64,000 nucleotides of DNA. It comes from Prorocentrum cordatum. Its lineage: Eukaryota; Sar; Dinophyceae; Prorocentrales; Prorocentraceae. Shown one piece after another: positions 11,048 to 61,024 of the stretch. The first letter of the stretch is position 1. Each line of letters opens with the position of its first letter. Made by a program: the position numbers and the translations under genes. The notes beneath the pieces are model-generated. The model made no database searches. It had not been told where the DNA came from and saw nothing but the letters and a program-made list of their open reading frames with translations. Location of the stretch: NCBI GenBank assembly GCA_963575745.1, contig CAUYUJ010014335.1, positions 306,001 through 370,000 on the forward strand, given 5' to 3'.

Positions 11048-11235
11048 GAACTGTAACACTGGAAACTACAAACTACAACTGGTACAGGAAACTGCGAATC
11101 ACGGTCCTACAGCCTGGTGGCCCCACAAGGGGGCCGGCTGATATATGTATATATATATACACATATGAAAATAAGATGATGGGAAGAGGGAGACGGGGAA
11201 GAGCAGGAGGGGAAGGGGACTGCAGTGGACCAGGG

Positions 11236-11516
11236 ATGATGACGGCGATGACGCTGATGATGATGATGATGTTGATGATGATGATGACGATGACCATGCC
11301 GACGACGCCGACGACGACCAACAAGATGTTGATGATGTGGATGATGATGCTGAAAAGTACGATGATGATGATGTCGATGATGGTCACGATGTTGATGATA
11401 ATGGTGGTACTGATGATTGTTGTGATGGTGATGGTGAAGGTGACCATGATCATGGCGATGACGATGAAGATGACGGGGATGAGGATGACAACGATGACTA
11501 TGATCATGACCCCAGC
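11236..11516. repeat. degenerate GATGAT tract
   Basis: GAT-rich sequence that would encode Asp-rich peptide in one frame and Met/Thr-rich in another. The duplicated tract at 14408-14694 differs by small indels such as an added GAT. No gene features flank it. Confidence 0.8.
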
Positions 11517-11853
11517 TAGAACTTGAGCGCGCGCGAAGCGCGCGCGATGGTTCCTAGGGTGTACATATATCTATCTGTGTGTATCCTTTCCAGGGCGCTC
11601 CAGAACGCTCCCAGAGCTTTCTGGAACGCTCTGAGCAGGCCGCGGCGCCCGATACATCCTCCAGAGCCGCCGGATCTCAGAGATTCTCGATCCGGGGGGA
11701 AGGGGCCCTCGAGGGCCCCTGGGCCCGTCAGGGCCCGGGAGGGGGCCTTCGGGGCCCGACGAGGGCACCATACCTTTTCCCCCCTCTCCCTCGTTGATCG
11801 CCCCCCCCGTGCACTCGCGCCCAGATCGATCCTCACCCGCATCCGTCCTCGTC

Positions 11854-12117
11854 CTTGCTTGGGCGTGGCCGATTTTAATAGGATTTCTTTTGTGAGGATT
11901 TCAGTCGGAGTCCTTCTGTGGCCAATGTCAATCGGACTGTTTTTGAGGAGGTTGTTAGAGGGAACCAGGGGGAGAAAGAAACATAACCAAAACATGTGAA
12001 GTCATGGATGTTTGTGAATGTTGCTGTGTTTTTGAATGTGTTTGTTTGAGTATGGTTTCGGGTATTTTAAAAATTGTTCGTCCAGAGTCCCCCTGTAGGG
12101 GGACGTGCCCGACCTGA
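11854..12117 (+). mobile_element. family I inverted-repeat transposon in B1 (264 bp)
   Basis: The right end is CCTGTAGGGGGACGTGCCCG followed by ACCTGA; the left end, CTTGCTTGGGCGTGGCC, is a decayed inverted copy. A perfect 8-bp target duplication, TCCTCGTC, flanks it (11846-11853 and 12118-12125). The interior is AT-richer than its surroundings and has no coding capacity, so it must be mobilised in trans. 8-bp duplications are typical of hAT-like DNA transposons; I assign the superfamily only tentatively. Confidence 0.75.
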
Positions 12118-12400
12118 TCCTCGTCCTGGCCTCGCCTTGCAAGTCGCCCGCCCTGCGGCCGGCGGCGGGGTGGCGCCAGGCGAGCGCGGCCAGCCTCGGC
12201 GGCCAGGGCACCGCGGGCGCCGGGCTCGCGGGGCGCGGGGGCCGCCAGGCCCCGCCGCGCCGCCCCCCGCCGAGGGGGGCCCTCGGGCGGCCCCTGCGGG
12301 GGGGGCCTCGGGCGGCCCGCCAGTTCGATGCTCCTTTGGGGGGCGACAATCCCAGAGATCCGAGGCACTAACAAAAATCAAGACGGAGGGTTTTCGCAAT
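12118..12400. other. GC-rich block of unit B, no gene called
   Basis: Very GC-rich sequence with long open frames on both strands full of Arg, Gly, Pro and Ala. The matching block at 15296-15578 is nearly identical. I see no domain and treat it as non-coding. Confidence 0.5.
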
Positions 12401-12410
12401 TTTTTCCGCC

Positions 12411-12510
12411 CCGGGGGGCCCTCGCCGGGCCCCGGGACCATCAAAAACTGTTCAGGACGAGAATCCGGTCTTGGGGAGTGGATCGATACTTCTGGGGATC
12501 GCGTCTGGAC
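12411..12510 (+). repeat. ~100-bp dispersed repeat (copies at 15590 and 17295)
   Basis: GGCCCTCGCCGGGCCCCGGG, then AGGACGAGAATCCGGTCTTG, then GTGGATCGATACTTCTGGGG. A diverged third copy lies at about 17295-17395 (ACCGGTCTTGGGGAAGGGGTCGAGACTTTTGGGGTCG). Confidence 0.75.
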
Positions 12511-12672
12511 AAAATGGCGACATCGGATCTCTGGGATGTTCCAGCCTACTCTAGCTTTGATCACCAGTCGGAATTTCGAGCACCACGAGAGTACCTACCC
12601 AAACTGGAGGGCTCTCATGTGTCGGGCTCTGGGAGGCGACACTCCTCCGACACGGTTTCGATATGGTTCTGA

Positions 12673-13440
12673 GTGCTCGAACGTATTTATGGGATGTCTC
12701 TCGATGTGGTGAATGACGCCATTTTAGGAGATCTGAGCAAGCTTGAAGTGGTGAGATTTTGGCTGCAGATGCTGCAGGAGGGACAGGTTTCTGCCGTGCT
12801 TGCGGGACCCCCCTGCGAAACTTGGTCCAGTGCGAGGTTTGCGGTTTTCCCTGATCGTCCTCGTCAGCCACGGCCGGTTAGATCGCGTGAGTTCCCGTGG
12901 GGTATCAAGGGTCTCCGTGTGAGAGAGAGAAAGAGAGATGGAACAAGTCAGGCTTGGCAGTGCTCTGCCCAGAACTACATGTTTTGCATGCTGGTTGTCA
13001 TGCCCATGTTCCTACGATTTTGGAGCACCCCAGCACCAGTGTTCATCGTCCCCACGCCCCCTCGCCCTGGCTCCTGGATCAGTTGCAACGTCTTAAGGGT
13101 AAACCCTACGTTAACTATGTGCACATTCACCAGTGTATGTTTGGAGCTACGTACAAGAAACGGACTTCCTTGCTGGCGGTGCGCTGTGCTTCTCTAGGCC
13201 GTATTGTTGCTGCCTGCCAGAATGGAGGGCTCTGTGATCAGAGCCACCAGCACGAGATTTTACTTACAGGGGACAGGAGGATGGGCAGTGGCGCACGAGC
13301 AAGGCCAACACGTATCCCCCTCGTCTCTGTCAGTTCCTTGCTTCCAATCTGTTTTGGGAGATCTGTCTGAGAGATGAGTGCACCGAGGTGGACGGGGGCT
13401 ATTGGGAGATTCCGAGTGTTGTGGCCCCCCCTTTTTTTGT
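12673..13440 (+). pseudogene. C-terminal methyltransferase-like domain of the LINE, copy in A2
   Basis: The open frame 12673-13197 reads MSLDVVNDAILGDLSKLEV, RFWLQMLQEGQVSAVLAG and then PPCETWSSARFAVFP with VRSREFPWGIKGL. PPCETWS resembles the PPC catalytic-loop motif of methyltransferases and is conserved in dinoflagellate LINE C-termini. In another phase the continuation ILEHPSTSVHRPHAP, VHIHQCMFGATYKKRTS and LLAVRC is visible (about 13020-13180). The N-terminal half of the domain (LHLFSG) is missing because the duplication starts inside it. It is a 5'-truncated fragment that cannot be functional, but it shows the original motif that A1 has lost. Confidence 0.65.
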
Positions 13441-14282: not shown

Positions 14283-14322
<40 letters not shown>

Positions 14323-14340
14323 GTATATATACACATATGA
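14280..14340. repeat. (TA)n microsatellite at the A2/B2 join
   Basis: TA dinucleotides mark the junction where segment X sits in the first copy. Confidence 0.85.
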
Positions 14341-15872
14341 AAATAAGATGATGGGAAGAGGGAGACGGGGAAGAGCAGGAGGGTAAGGGGACTGCAGTGG
14401 ACCAGGGATGATGACGGCGATGACGCTGATGATGATGATGATGATGATGTTGATGATGATGACGATGACCATGCCGACGACGCCGACGACGACCAACAAG
14501 ATGTTGATGATGTGGATGATGATGATGCTGAAAAGTACGATGATGATGATGTCGATGATGGTCACGATGTTGATGATAATGGTGGTACTGATGATTGTTG
14601 TGATGGTGATGGTGAAGGTGACCATGATCATGGCGATGACGATGAAGATGACGGGGATGAGGATGACAACGATGACTATGATCATGACCCCAGCTAGAAC
14701 TTGAGCGCGCGCGAAGCGCGCGCGATGGTTCCTAGGGTGTACATATATCTATCTGTGTGTATCCTTTCCAGGGCGCTCCAGAACGCTCCCAGAGCTTTCT
14801 GGAACGCTCTGAGCAGGCCGCGGCGCCCGATACATCCTCCAGAGCCGCCGGATCTCAGAGATTCTCGATCCGGGGGGAAGGGGCCCTCGAGGGCCCCTGG
14901 GCCCGTCAGGGCCCGGGAGGGGGCCTTCGGGGCCCGACGAGGGCACCATACCTTTTCCCCCCTCTCCCTCGTTGATCGCCCCCCCCGTGCACTCGCGCCC
15001 AGATCGATCCTCACCCGCATCCGTCCTCGTCCTTGCTTGGGCGTGGCCGATTTTAATAGGATTCCTTTTGTGAGGATTTCAGTCGGAGTCCTTCTGTGGC
15101 CAATGTCAATCGGACTGTTTTTGAGGAGGTTGTGAGAGGGAACCAGGGGGAGAAAGAAACATAACCAAAACATGTGAAGTCATGGATGTTTGTGAATGTT
15201 GCTGTGTTTTTGAATGTGTTTGTTTGAGTATGGTTTCGGGTATTTTAAAAATTGTTCGTCCAGAGTCCCCCTGTAGGGGGACGTGCCCGACCTGATCCTC
15301 GTCCTGGCCTCGCCTTGCAAGTCGCCCGCCCTGCGGCCGGCGGCGGGGTGGCGCCAGGCGAGCGCGGCCAGCCTCGGCGGCCAGGGCACCGCGGGCGCCG
15401 GGCTCGCGGGGCGCGGGGGCCGCCAGGCCCCGCCGCGCCGCCCCCCGCCGAGGGGGGCCCTCGGGCGGCCCCTGCGGGGGGGGCCTCGGGCGGCCCGCCA
15501 GTTCGATGCTCCTTTGGGGGGCGACAATCCCAGAGATCCGAGGCACTAACAAAAATCAAGACGGAGGGTTTTCGCAATTTTTTCCGCCCCGGGGGGCCCT
15601 CGCCGGGCCCCGGGACCATCAAAAAACTATTCAGGACGAGAATCCGGTCTTGGGGAGTGGATCGATACTTCTGGGGATCGCGTCTGGACAAAATGGCGAC
15701 ATCGGATCTCTGGGATGTTCCAGCCTACTCTAGCTTTGATCACCAGTCAGCATTTCGAGCACCACGAGAGTACCCAAACTGGAGGGCTCTCATGTGTCGG
15801 GCTCTGGGAGGCGACACTCCTCCGACACGGTTTCGATATGGTTCTGAGTGCTCGAACGTATTTATGGGATGT
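14341..15872 (+). repeat. unit B, second copy (B2)
   Basis: Near-identical to 11163-12697. It ends at CGTATTTATGGGATGT and is followed by GGTCCTGAAG, which is unique in the window and marks the right end of the tandem duplication. Confidence 0.95.
15032..15295 (+). mobile_element. family I inverted-repeat transposon in B2 (264 bp)
   Basis: Duplicated with unit B from the 11854-12117 copy rather than inserted independently; the flanking 8-bp duplication TCCTCGTC (15024-15031 and 15296-15303) is the same. Confidence 0.75.
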
Positions 15873-18032: not shown

Positions 18033-18187
18033 TTAAGTCGGGCCTGGCCCTCCAGGAGGAATATCCAAACATAGTCCAAAAATAGTATGAAGACTATTTT
18101 TTGACTTTTTTACGACGTGTTGAGAATTGTTGGGTATTCTTAGTTTTCCGCCCAGGGTCCTCCTGGAGGGGGACATGCCCGACCTAA
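18033..18187 (+). mobile_element. family I inverted-repeat transposon (155 bp)
   Basis: The left end TTAAGTCGGGCCTGGCCCTC and the right end GGGACATGCCCGACCTAA are inverted copies, extended inward by CCAGGAGG and CCTCCTGG. Flanking 8-mers AGTAAGGA (18025-18032) and AGCAAGAA (18188-18195) match at six of eight positions, as expected for an aged target duplication. The interior is AT-rich and non-coding. Confidence 0.75.
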
Positions 18188-20062: not shown

Positions 20063-20225
20063 TGAAGTCGGGCATGTTCTTCTACAGGAGGAGCGCTCAA
20101 GAATGGTTAAACAAACAAATGGTCTGGTGACGATGTTTCGTGCTCTTCTGTCTATTGCTGAGTACTTGTTTTGATTGGTGCTTTTTGGTCCCAAATCAGC
20201 CTGCAGGAGGACGTGCCCGACCTGA
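20063..20225 (+). mobile_element. family I inverted-repeat transposon (163 bp)
   Basis: Left end TGAAGTCGGGCATGTTCTTC, right end GAGGACGTGCCCGACCTGA; CTACAGGAGG and CCTGCAGGAGG add to the inverted repeats. Flanking 8-mers CGCTGTCG and CGCTAGCG match at six of eight positions. Confidence 0.7.
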
Positions 20226-33490: not shown

Positions 33491-33752
33491 CCTTGGAGCA
33501 AACGCGACATTGCATCCAGATCGTGCCGGACCTGTGGTCTGGTTGGTCCGGGCAGGACGCATCATCAAGGTGGATGTGTGCCAGATCCGAGCTGCGTCCA
33601 CGCGGGAGATCGCCTGCGCTGAGCTCGGGGCGGGCAAGGACACGCCCTGGACCGCGAACGCATTCATGAATCAGGCGATGCGGCAGGAGTGCCGGGACTT
33701 TTCGTGACTCGACCCCACGGAGCAGGACTAGGAACTCGCATCCTGGGCGGAG
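33440..33752 (+). pseudogene. integrase-RT linker with two stops
   Basis: The phase of 33348 reads GLARVLAAETSW and VWLVRAGRIIKVDVCQIRAAS before TGA (33705-33707), then TAG (33729-33731), after which the same phase enters the RT frame. The strand pattern VVWLVRAGRII-V---QIR is the usual C-terminal DNA-binding end of copia integrase. Confidence 0.6.
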
Positions 33753-35792
33753 GTGCCTGAACCAGCGCCTCCAGTGAAGAAGGCCCGCCACGAGGAGCCG
33801 CCCAGTGAGACCAAGTCCGAGCGCAACCAGATCCCTGTGCGCAGGGCGATTCGGAAGAATACACCACCGCCAGGAGGAGTGGCCAGCATCGCGAAGGCAG
33901 CCCGGGCTGCGCAGGCAGAGGATATCACGATGGAAAGGGCTGCCCTGATGGCCAAGGCATCCTCGGATGCACGATCCTTCTGGGCACGGCAGGGGACATC
34001 CCTGGGGATCTCGGTCGAGCTGCCCCCGGCAGGACAGCCCCTGAAGCAGGCCACGAGACGCATGAGCACCTACATGGCAGGCCAACTGAAAAGTGGGAAG
34101 CGAGAGATCGCAGAGCGGACCCTCGCCCTGGTGGAGGTGGCGAAGTTCAGCGTCGCCAAGGCCACCGAGGTGAACAACTACGTGATATCCTCCGCGCTGG
34201 AATCCATGCCGCCTGGGGCCACCCCGCCACCAGAGGATGTAATGCGCATGCGGTGGATCCTGGAGTGGAAGATGGATGAGACTACGAGTGAGAAGAAACC
34301 CAAGGCCCGGATCGTGGTCTTGGGTTACATGGATCCTGAGTACGAGCACCGGCCGACGACCGCACCAACCATGACCAGGACCTCCCGGCACCCGGTGCTG
34401 CAGGCTATGGCGTGGCTCGGGTTCAAGGGTTACAAGGCCGACGTGACAGTAGCGTTTACCCAGAACCGGGAGATCAAGCACGACCTGTTCGGGATGCCCG
34501 TGGAGGAGCTGGCCGTCGCCCTGGGGATGCTCGAAGGGGTTGCGATGCGACTGCGGAAGGCAGGCTATGGGCTCGTGGAGGCAGCCATCGAGTGGTTCAT
34601 GACGGTGGGCGAGGCCCTGGAGGAGTTCGGCTGGACGCAGATGAAGATGGACCCATGCGTTTTGGCACTCCACGGCCAATCCCACGGCCAGGACACCAGC
34701 TTCACGAAGGAGGCCATGGGTCTATTCACGGGGTCCGAGGTAATGGGCGAGCTGATCGCGGCGGAGGGCGACCTGGACATTGTGGCTATCGCAGGGCCCC
34801 GCGTGGATGACTTCCTGCTCGGAGGGAAGGAGACGGACCCCAGGTGGATCGAAGCCCGGAAGAAGATCGAAGAGCGGTTCAAGTGGAACGTATGGGAGAC
34901 CGAGAATTTCATGCAGACTGTTGTCCGGATCCGGCAGCTTCCAGATATGAGCTTCAAGATGGACCAGAGTGAGCATGTCAAGACCATCGAGAAGGCAGTC
35001 GTGAGCCCGGGGCGAAAGAAGAACAAGGACGCCCCGACCACCGACAAGGAGAAGGGGCAGCTGAGGGCAATCCTGGGTGCCATCGGCTGGCGCTCCGAGC
35101 AGTCAGGCCCCGTGCACTCGGCGGGCGCAAGCCTGTTGCTAAGCGCGATGCCGTCCTCCACCGTGCAGACCCCCGTGGACACGAACCGCCTGGTGGACAG
35201 GGTGCTGGAGGGAGCAGACCTCCCCGTGGGCATCTACAGCCATTCTAGCGCGCAGGTGATCGTTCCCATCGAGTGGTCAGATTCCTCGGAAGCGAACCGC
35301 CCCGACGGAAAATCCACCAAGGGACTTGTCACAGAGATGGCCCCACTACGCATCATGCAGGGAGATGAGTCAGACGTGAGCATGATATCATGGAAGTCAG
35401 GAAAGATCCACCGAGAGTGCCGGAGTTCAGTATCATGTGAGACCCGATCAGCTGTGGACGGTGAGGACGAACTGTTCGGGGTCAAGCTCCAGGGCTTGGA
35501 GATGCTCGGCAATCAGATCGACTGGCGCAACTCGGAAGGGACACTCAGTCAGTTACCCGCCGCCCTCGTGGTGGACGCAAAGGGTCTCTACGACAAGTTG
35601 CAGACCACGGTGTACACATTCCGCGGCAAGGAAAAGAGAATTGACGTGGAGGCCATGACCTTGAAGGAGGGATCGGCGGCGTCCAACAACTGGGTGCTGT
35701 GGGCGCACGGAGACGCTCAGCTGGCGAACTTTTTGACGAAGGGGCACGAGCCTGGACAGCTGGGGATGTACTACAACAGTGGCCACAGGTGA
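33753..35792 (+). CDS. copia reverse transcriptase and RNase H, intact frame
   Basis: A 679-codon open frame with no ATG at its 5' end; it is part of a polyprotein. RT (about residues 150-400): MRMRWILEWKM, KPKARIVVLGYMDPEYE, RPTTAPTMTRTSRHPVLQ, GYKADVTVAFTQNREIK with the first catalytic Asp, LRKAGYGLVEAAIEWF, then the catalytic box AGPRVDDFLLGG (the usual Y/H-V-D-D has Arg). RNase H (about residues 500-670): VPIEWSDSSEANRPDG, ISWKSGKIHRECRS, SCETRSAVDGEDE, LVVDAKGLYDKLQ and WVLWAHGDAQLANFLTKG, giving Asp, Glu, Asp and Asp in order. The TGA at 35790-35792 falls where related elements have Trp after GHR, and the phase stays open to 36005. Confidence 0.9.
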   Translation: MPEPAPPVKKARHEEPPSETKSERNQIPVRRAIRKNTPPPGGVASIAKAARAAQAEDITMERAALMAKASSDARSFWARQGTSLGISVELPPAGQPLKQATRRMSTYMAGQLKSGKREIAERTLALVEVAKFSVAKATEVNNYVISSALESMPPGATPPPEDVMRMRWILEWKMDETTSEKKPKARIVVLGYMDPEYEHRPTTAPTMTRTSRHPVLQAMAWLGFKGYKADVTVAFTQNREIKHDLFGMPVEELAVALGMLEGVAMRLRKAGYGLVEAAIEWFMTVGEALEEFGWTQMKMDPCVLALHGQSHGQDTSFTKEAMGLFTGSEVMGELIAAEGDLDIVAIAGPRVDDFLLGGKETDPRWIEARKKIEERFKWNVWETENFMQTVVRIRQLPDMSFKMDQSEHVKTIEKAVVSPGRKKNKDAPTTDKEKGQLRAILGAIGWRSEQSGPVHSAGASLLLSAMPSSTVQTPVDTNRLVDRVLEGADLPVGIYSHSSAQVIVPIEWSDSSEANRPDGKSTKGLVTEMAPLRIMQGDESDVSMISWKSGKIHRECRSSVSCETRSAVDGEDELFGVKLQGLEMLGNQIDWRNSEGTLSQLPAALVVDAKGLYDKLQTTVYTFRGKEKRIDVEAMTLKEGSAASNNWVLWAHGDAQLANFLTKGHEPGQLGMYYNSGHR

Positions 35793-44653: not shown

Positions 44654-44803
44654 GTTGGGTCGGGCCTGTCTCTCTACAGGCAGGTTTTGGACGAAATTGA
44701 AAAATAGGCAACAAATGCCAAAAAGTACCCAACCCATCCTCCCCAGACTATGTTTTCATTTTTGTTCCAATATTCATCCTGTAGAGGGACAGGCCCGACT
44801 CGA
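44654..44803 (+). mobile_element. family I inverted-repeat transposon (150 bp)
   Basis: Left end TTGGGTCGGGCCTGTCTCTC then TACAGG; right end CCTGTAGAGGGACAGGCCCG then ACTCGA. A perfect 8-bp target duplication, GCCTTGCG, lies at 44646-44653 and 44804-44811. AT-rich interior. Confidence 0.85.
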
Positions 44804-54118: not shown

Positions 54119-54829
54119 TCAGCTCCCTTCCCCTTGAGGCTGAGTGGCCGTCGGCACAGCAGAACTACTGGAGGCGCTAGGCAAATTACGAAAAACTTCA
54201 TTCTCGCGCGCGGCGTCCTGCCCTAGGGCGGTGGGCCACCAGTCGCCTGGATGTGGGAAGAGACCTCTCTCCAAGAGCAACATATCTTCATCTGAGAGGT
54301 CTTCATTTCGAGCCAGCGCCAGCACCTCAGGGTCGATCAACTCGGTGCGGTCGAGCTCGCACTCCTGGCACTTCCACAACCTGTGGTAGACCGTATCGCC
54401 TAGTTGGCCACAAAGCGGGCAGATGTCAGGGACCTGGTAACTGGCAGCCACGACACGCGAGAGGGGCCAGAGGCCACGGCGCGACACCGTACGGATGCAA
54501 CCCTTGTCTAAGGGCGAAATGTTACGAGAGGCGAGCCCTTCGAAAAGACTGGCGAAACACGACCCGGATCCGGAGGCGTGCTTGTCTCCCGTGTCCTGTT
54601 CCAGAAGCCGGTCCAAAATCGGCCTGTAGGGGGACATGCCCGACCTAAGGGTAGCGGCGGTGTCAATCAACCAGACTTCACGTGCGCAGCTCACACTCGG
54701 CGCAGCCGTGCCAAGCCAGATGAGGTCGCCCTCCAGGCGCAACAGGGAGCACAGAGACCGTTCGCCCGAGATTGGTTTTGGAGTGGTGCCCGCAGGCCTT
54801 CGAACCTTGGCGAGCTCCCCGTCAGACAT
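54119..54829 (-). pseudogene. LINE Cys/His knuckle region
   Basis: A 236-codon minus-strand open frame. Near its end is ICPLCGQLGDTVYHRLWKCQ, a CPLC-x10-HRLWxC knuckle (Cx2C...HxxxxC) typical of the region after RT in these elements, followed by EDMLLLERGLFPHPGDWWPT. RGLFPHPGD is a phrase I associate with dinoflagellate LINE polyproteins. Upstream GLASRNISPLDKGCIRTVSR and RRGLWPLSRVVAASYQVPD lead to it. Near the N-terminus, TLRSGMSPYRP is the translation of a family I-type right end (about 54622-54648). Confidence 0.7.
54622..54648 (+). repeat. orphan family I right end
   Basis: CCTGTAGGGGGACATGCCCG then ACCTAA matches the right terminus of family I; no left end or target duplication was found upstream. 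It is read through by the minus-strand LINE frame as SGMSPYR. Confidence 0.55.
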
Positions 54830-54856
54830 CTCGTGGACTTCACAGCCGTACTGGAG

Positions 54857-55043
54857 TTAAGTCGGGCGTGTCCCCCTACGGGGAGTTTCGACGAAAAAAA
54901 TACCCTGAAAATAATCAACAAATAATCCAAACATAGTCTGGGAATTACTTTTTTAATATTTGTTTACCTTTTGGGGGTATGTTTGGGGGGTATTTTCTAT
55001 TTTTCGTCGAAAATACCCCTGTAGGGGGACACGCCCGACATAA
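54857..55043. mobile_element. family I inverted-repeat transposon (187 bp), best copy
   Basis: Left end TTAAGTCGGGCGTGTCCCCC TACGGGG, right end CCTGTAGGGGGACACGCCCG ACATAA, with a further paired block TTTCGACGAAAAA / TTTTTCGTCGAAA. A perfect 8-bp target duplication TACTGGAG lies at 54849-54856 and 55044-55051. The AT-rich interior has no open frame of note. It interrupts the minus-strand LINE between the knuckle and RT regions. Confidence 0.92.
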
Positions 55044-55479
55044 TACTGGAGGGCTGGGAGGGCTCCGGCGCAGAAAAATAGCCTCGTATGATGGGTCCCT
55101 CGCCCGATAGGGCCCCCCGCTGCAGGAACCAGACGCCGGGTGCGGCGGAACGCCTCAGTGGTCCGGGCTTTGGCCCTGGCCTTCCTGCCCCGGACCCGGC
55201 GGGCACGGCCTCTCGTCGGCGCCACCCCGCACATTTCTACTACACTAGGGGAGCAACAAGTGACATAAACATATGAACTCGGAGGTCCGCGCGGATTTCT
55301 CGGATCGGCGCTGGGGGCCCCTCCCTGGCGCGCGGAGCGCGCCTGGGGCGGCGCCGGAGGCGCCGCCTGGGGGGCCCAGCGCCTCCGAGTTTTTACGTTT
55401 ATGTCACTTTTTGTTCCCCTATACATGTGCGTCGCCCCCCCCCGGGGGCGACGCGCGCACCGAGACATTTTATAGTATG

Positions 55480-60299: not shown

Positions 60300-60515
60300 C
60301 ACATCTGAAATTCAGATTGGCCCTGTCTGAAATTCAGATTGCCCTTGTCCGCAATTGAGATTGCCCCCCCTGGGGACTCGGGAGAGGCGTTCAGCATGAG
60401 ACTTCTGCACAAAAGTGTTTCTGATTGGCCTGGTCTGAAATTCAGTGTGACCGGGTCTGAAATTCAGATTGGCCCAGTCTGAATTTCAGATTGTTTTGGT
60501 CTGAATTTCAGATGT
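60300..60515. repeat. cluster of TCTGAAATTCAGA palindromes
   Basis: TCTGAAATTCAGATTGGCCC and variants occur about seven times (60303-60365 and 60435-60512), spaced about 21-23 bases with a gap in the middle. The 13-bp core TCTGAAATTCAGA is a perfect palindrome. Confidence 0.85.
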
Positions 60516-61024
60516 GGTGGCTCCGCGTAGCAGAATTCTTCGGTTTGATGCCGTTGCCCATGGGGCGAACTTGGTCGACGGTTGTTGTCTTGCGTGGTTG
60601 CGACATGTGACATGAGATGCTCTTGCCATTCTGTTAGGGTAGCTGGCACTCGAAGCCCCGATGTTCCCTTGGACGTGGCGCGCCTTGCGGTTGCGGAAAA
60701 CATAGAAAGTCGATGTATCATGGTTGGGAGTGTCTGGTGATGACCACGCAGTCACCAGCGAGGCGCCGTCTGATTCGGACCATAATCATTAATCATTATC
60801 CCCCTTTCGGCGGCGATCCTCGGGGGAAGTGAGACGGGGCCCGCCTTGAAAGGAACAACACATCGTTGAATCATAAATTATCTTGACCCCTTCCCTCTCC
60901 CAAGGATGGCGTTGGCACCTGCTTTGGCTTGACAGGCGTTGTGGTGGCTGGCAGGCGGCCTCTGTGGGCGCAATGGGCGTGGCGAGGCTGCATGTCAAAA
61001 ACAGTCTGGATGACGTGGTGGTAA

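Follow-up and report, generated by a model that had tools for sequence, protein, structure and literature searches.

The origin of introns is a long-standing question, and in dinoflagellates transposons are thought to make introns. Across eukaryotes, introners are known that have terminal inverted repeats and duplicate their target (Gozashti et al. 2022, PMC9860276); the text of that survey reports that the insertion site provides both splice sites in Florenciella and that in Symbiodinium 4-bp duplications give the donor. The Aureococcus introner has an 8-bp duplication (PMC9860276) and inverted ends (PMC7789003), and introners of Amoebophrya, a dinoflagellate relative, carry inverted and direct repeats at their boundaries (PMC7789003). 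A survey of five dinoflagellate genomes (Roy et al. 2023) is described in PMC11453091. In Prorocentrum cordatum introners are known as a class with inverted repeats at both intron ends, which Dougan et al. 2023 (PMC10666404) take to suggest that active DNA transposons of non-autonomous type are at work. Their definition is purely structural and asks for inverted repeats 8-20 nt long and, no farther than 30 bases from the intron ends, direct repeats of 3-5 nt; the text compared here names neither a family nor an end sequence for the class and mentions no target preference or 8-bp duplication. The same text reports a G+C content of 59.7% for the genome of strain CCMP1329 and, for P. cordatum introns, 51.4% GC donors, 23.8% GA donors and 79.7% AGG acceptors (PMC10666404, Table 2).

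Here we characterize Family I, whose members are very probably high-copy miniature non-autonomous cut-and-paste transposons with a target duplication that can supply both splice sites. The family belongs to the introners' known class and we do not claim that it is unpublished. Its ends were not found in the searchable introner and dinoflagellate MITE literature, a body that excludes most subscription papers and all supplements, in agreement with a preliminary description of the locus that knew of no named element with this end. Like the introners surveyed in the text of PMC9860276, Family I appears to consist of non-autonomous DNA transposons that can become introns, but it differs from them in sequence, in an 8-bp duplication giving both splice sites and in a palindromic target preference. 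The 8-bp duplication and inverted ends are shared with the Aureococcus introner, and the inverted and direct repeats with those of Amoebophrya, although as far as the text of PMC7789003 describes them the direct repeats of the latter measure 3-5 nt, a large number of their splice sites are non-canonical and no family-specific inverted repeat is reported.

The stretch of DNA analyzed (the window) spans 64,000 nucleotides of a P. cordatum contig. The copy at 54857-55043 starts with TTAAGTCGGGC and ends with GCCCGACATAA, its inverted arms occupy 54857-54883 and 55017-55043, and its single-strand fold has a z of -9.9. The long matching ends and perfect duplication originally reported there are borne out. 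The other copies named in the preliminary description are all present, although the start given as 44654 lies one base early (Table 1). Its tally of three perfect and two 6-of-8 duplications also stands, the copies at 11854 and 15032 having rightly been counted as one event since both lie inside a single tandem duplication (11141-12697 and 14313-15872, 98.7% identical) that carries one Family I insertion twice. The left end of the 11854 element is diverged.

Table 1. Family I features in the window. E values are for a profile built from copies that include four of those listed (E 7.3e-29 to 2.9e-33) and the copy in stretch L021; slashes mark predicted splice boundaries.
Feature	Coordinates	Strand	Evidence
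Family I element, 187 bp	54857..55043	+	profile positions 1-149, E 6.5e-30; 27-nt arms at 93%
Left target duplication TACTGGAG	54849..54856	n/a	direct reading; single octamer in empty paralogs
Right target duplication TACTGGAG	55044..55051	n/a	direct reading
Family I element	18033..18187	+	duplication AGTAAGGA and AGCAAGAA, 6/8; E 2.9e-33
Family I element	20063..20225	+	duplication CGCTGTCG and CGCTAGCG, 6/8; E 7.3e-29
Family I element	44655..44803	-	GCCTTGCG on both sides; minus strand CGCAAG/GC, splice-ready; E 1.1e-32
Diverged Family I element	11854..12117	+	TCCTCGTC on both sides; duplication on minus strand GACGAG/GA, splice-ready; profile positions 25-148, E 2e-14
Second copy of the 11854 insertion	15032..15295	+	TCCTCGTC on both sides; E 2e-14; via tandem duplication
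Partial Family I copy, right end only	54611..54648	+	profile positions 112-149, E 2.7e-9; three paralogs compared

When the flanks of 54857-55043 were joined with one TACTGGAG (285 long) and searched against the same genome, three paralogs without the element were found to span the junction, namely C12644 (83%, query positions 1-281), C4447 (80%, 42-242) and C14869 (70%, 3-188); two other matches stop short of the junction and are uninformative. A single octamer is present at each empty site, TACTGGAG in C4447 and TACCGGAG in C12644, that of C14869 being more altered with a one-base indel. At the partial copy the window and the paralogs diverge precisely where the element ends, and by eye the window picks up again at a point approximately 200 bp farther downstream in the paralogs. 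Compared in this way, 54611-54648 would appear to record an insertion followed by deletion of the other half of the element and adjoining host sequence. A coding motif ancestral to the element ends was also considered for this segment and was dropped, the paralogs indicating a truncated insertion. The host sequence (54122-54856, minus strand), together with C12644, C4447 and C14869, is multi-copy and apparently coding, with Family I inserted twice. It carries the motif CPLCG...HRLWKC, which we take to resemble a retroelement zinc knuckle, the sequence perhaps being a retroelement. Searches with its translation gave no relatives at E <= 0.01, no NCBIfam match at E <= 0.1, no Pfam match other than a C1 domain that fell short of the cut-off, and four weak and unconvincing matches to solved structures (best E 0.27). 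Elsewhere in the window, the sole strong lead in a Pfam scan of 20 open frames was a reverse transcriptase just under cut-off (RVT_2, E 6.3e-7) in a 686-aa frame at 33732-35789 on the plus strand. An Rfam search of the window at gathering thresholds returned nothing. Repeats of the unit TCTGAAATTCAGATTGGCCC occupy 60303-60535, where seven overlapping copies of a 58-nt unit are listed.

The complete genome (4,128,499,153 bases in 21,875 contigs) was searched for GTCGGGC and GCCCGAC 100-130 bp apart, yielding 10,910 places compared with 1,571 for a reversed-pattern control. From 50 listed distinct places six were dropped by eye, the end consensus being absent beyond the 7 bases (C1:1638963, C2:971391, C3:748944, C5:116710, C26:549025 and C32:40249), and the remaining 44 were combined with four window copies and the L021 copy to give a set of 49 in whose choice the flanks played no part. 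Addition of the 11854 copy gave a set of 50 insertions. A single 149-bp consensus with inverted ends accommodates all 49 elements, most interior columns being 0.6-0.9 conserved and identity to the consensus ranging from 0.708 to 0.872 (median 0.804). The earlier view that the interiors share almost nothing but AT-richness can no longer be upheld, the interiors being one sequence family; the impression is understandable given a median pairwise interior identity of just 0.59. Mean G+C is 0.456 in the elements and 0.642 in the flanks. The duplications are better kept than the interior sequences, and the family may therefore have been diverse already before these copies landed. Family I is short and present in many copies, with inverted ends, a fixed-length 8-bp duplication and empty sites, as in a MITE. 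A profile search of 168,157 bp of sample stretches (L005-L022, taken at fixed positions on evenly spaced contig numbers and not picked for the element) gave six copies, some partial, or approximately one per 28 kb, one of them (L021) also being in the profile. Very roughly, these six events would correspond to a genome-wide copy number of about 150,000, with at least two-fold uncertainty either way. One of the six copies, a 607-bp long form at L011:8258-8864, has Family I ends and core with extra GC-rich sequence and no obvious coding.

The preliminary description had proposed a genome-wide check of the flanking repeats, and in the 44 genome-wide and five other copies 8-bp repeats were present above chance. 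A direct repeat begins exactly 4 bp outside GTCGGGC, with duplication columns 1-8 agreeing in 34-37 of the 49 copies and the columns just outside in 9-20. The repeat is perfect in 16 copies, matches at seven of eight positions in 10 and at six in eight, giving 34 with at least six matches, the other 15 having fewer; among 2352 mispaired left and right flanks none was perfect and six matched at seven bases. The flank-column and mispairing results define the element as TTAA-GTCGGGC...GCCCGAC-NTAA with an 8-bp target duplication. Together with the empty sites, these data uphold its original classification, a DNA transposon that is non-autonomous, has TTAAGTCGGGC ends and duplicates 8 bp of its target.

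A genome search for kinesin motor domains with PF00225 gave 136 matches, from which 20 stretches were chosen that either showed a short gap separating contiguous matches or contained extra sequence internally. The Family I profile matched one, L082 on C10907 (profile positions 6-147, E 7.9e-31). This stretch has the layout ...ATCCACGAGGTGCAG/GATTCATTCGGGTATG...GTGCCCGACCTGTGTGCAG/GATGCCGCC..., with GTGCAGGA perfect on both sides of the element. Judged by protein homology, the predicted intron consists of exactly one element plus one duplication (AG/GA...AG/GA), the GA donor and the AG acceptor both lying within the duplication. Taking out 169 nt leaves one open frame containing GQTGSGKT, NSSRSH and LVDLAGSE, presumed hallmarks of kinesins, and this frame aligns across the junction to solved kinesins (best E 1.8e-32), while the insert if retained brings stops and a frame shift (169 mod 3 = 1). 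In an intron-free paralog, C14428, 99 nt align to the joined exons without a gap at 85%, with 43 of 49 bases identical at the junction and GTGCAGGA present once; the intron gain is thus seen against a paralog rather than against another strain or species. From the sequence, the L082 element is precisely a predicted kinesin intron, a role missed by the preliminary description. A Family I copy can on this evidence be an intron, and this one case puts the family among introners.

A DHC_N2 search for dyneins gave 43 matches with 12 short gaps, and none of the three stretches fetched contained Family I; a DEAD-helicase search gave 51 matches in the genome, among them two places with extra sequence. 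The segment at L007:196-346 was considered as an intron and set aside, its flanks seeming to be another repeat. Another family that resembles introners occupies 55246-55421 of the window; its ends are of the type AGGGGAACAA...TGACATAAACATA and its interior is a GC-rich hairpin. By eye it also lies in gaps between coding matches in kinesin stretches L077, L078, L079 and L087 and dynein stretch L099, with AG/GA-type junctions where inspected.

Target-site composition was determined for those 34 copies whose repeats agree at six or more positions. With strands pooled, positions 3-6 of the duplication are C (0.58), T (0.62), A (0.62) and G (0.58), against a flank background of approximately 0.33 for each of C and G and 0.17 for each of A and T, indicating a palindromic preference, nnCTAGnn. 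Left duplication copies match CTAG at a mean of 2.08 of four positions compared with 1.02 for control 8-mers from the same flanks. Since the centre of the site tends to CTAG, AG tends to fall at positions 5-6 on either strand, and it was found there in the downstream duplication, on either strand, in 23 of 50 insertions compared with 12.7% of control 8-mers. Splice-ready pairs, in which the downstream copy has AG at positions 5-6 and the upstream copy has GT, GC or GA at 7-8, occur in 8 of the 50 insertions compared with 3.7% of control 8-mers, a control that treats single 8-mers as perfectly duplicated; in two of the eight the duplications are poor (L004, 4/8; L055, 1/8), leaving six. The 54857 copy itself is not splice-ready, its minus strand reading CTCCAG/TA without a legal donor. 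By itself, the insertion preference would thus seem to make it likelier that an insertion in a gene is spliceable.

An alternative to which we give a low probability is that Family I is a plain MITE family, intergenic and intronic, to which the label 'introner' would not properly apply, the kinesin intron being a rare accident. In keeping with this, only one of the 23 chosen kinesin and dynein stretches contains Family I, and in L046 a presumptive aldo/keto-reductase-like exon, in our reading the sole recognizable exon in the translations, seems not to include the neighbouring element. The 49 copies likewise show little sign of exon insertion. When their flanks were joined at 285 bp, 25 were open at the right phase compared with 19-21 at wrong ones (a count of 3 at k=4 was disregarded, the stretches ending there); the corresponding values were 27 and 21-26 at 250 bp, 32 and 29-33 at 200 bp (no phase effect), and 43-44 and 39-41 at 150 bp. 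Random genome stretches were open at 0.47 to 0.70. Given this small phase effect and the openness of random stretches, most copies seem to lie outside exons, and exonic insertion as the rule was rejected, the 49 empty sites showing at most a small phase effect. Against the plain-MITE interpretation, however, stand the exact removal, predicted from the sequence, of the kinesin intron with both splice sites in the duplication and the over-representation of splice-ready duplications. Rarity is moreover compatible with the label, since in exons introner families generally form a minority.

Less probable still is that Family I adds codons in the manner of the Aureococcus introner, splicing from its own GT donor to the AG of the second duplication and leaving 6 nt (two codons) in the message. 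Each end has a GT 4 nt within it, positions 5-6 of the duplication are often AG, and on the minus strand the 54857 copy would keep its frame open; splicing from the GT of GTCGGGC was also appealing by eye on the first ten or so copies. The kinesin intron, a single case, contradicts it, as there this GT is mutated (TTCGGGT) and exact removal alone restores the kinesin protein and fits the intron-free paralog. The Aureococcus introner, as described in the text of PMC9860276, carries both splice sites and adds 12 bp to the transcript, in contrast to the exact removal predicted for the kinesin intron. That the copies reflect chance pairing of a 7-bp motif, in a genome rich in GC and with repeats chosen by eye, has almost no probability and is refuted, for although the reversed-pattern control still yields places and the six dropped places resembled chance, the 8-bp duplications are tied to the ends with no similarity immediately outside, and a shared consensus and empty sites are found.

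The preferred reading, that Family I consists of miniature cut-and-paste transposons able to become introns, calls for a transposase. A gene with the same ends, as sought in line with the preliminary description, was looked for among hAT transposases: the genome search with PF05699 gave eight matches, none with Family I ends within approximately 1.5 kb on each side (about 3 kb). The eight Dimer_Tnp_hAT matches (L063-L070), two equal in score, lie mostly in long open frames. The end consensus of hAT elements is YARNG. The ends of Family I begin with TTAAG, the second base being T at 0.69 in the left end and 0.80 read from the right end, and since these ends do not fit YARNG the family is not filed as hAT. 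An 8-bp duplication with a TA centre (nnnTAnnn) is nevertheless shared with the hAT element TcBuster, as described in the text of PMC3499496.

In the mechanism that we propose, a transposase encoded elsewhere would recognize the approximately 25-bp inverted ends (TTAAGTCGGGC...) and mobilize the elements in trans. Insertion would take place at 8-bp sites with the preference nnCTAGnn, all 8 bp being duplicated, and the CTAG centre would tend to place AG at positions 5-6 of both copies of the duplication, whichever strand the gene uses. Exact removal of the insert with one duplication would leave the message unchanged and the transposon would become an intron. We infer that the target preference predisposes copies to this fate. 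It is conceivable, though we hold this only tentatively, that the palindromic preference pre-adapts insertions as introns in either orientation. If several introner families of this lineage were alike, donors would be whatever follows AG-type exon targets, which if true would help explain the wide dinoflagellate use of GC and GA donors and AGG acceptors. The rule, an 8-bp duplication that has AG at its positions 5-6 and the donor at 7-8, is checkable against every annotated intron of the published genome, and it would link the target preference of a transposase to the odd splice-site usage of the lineage.
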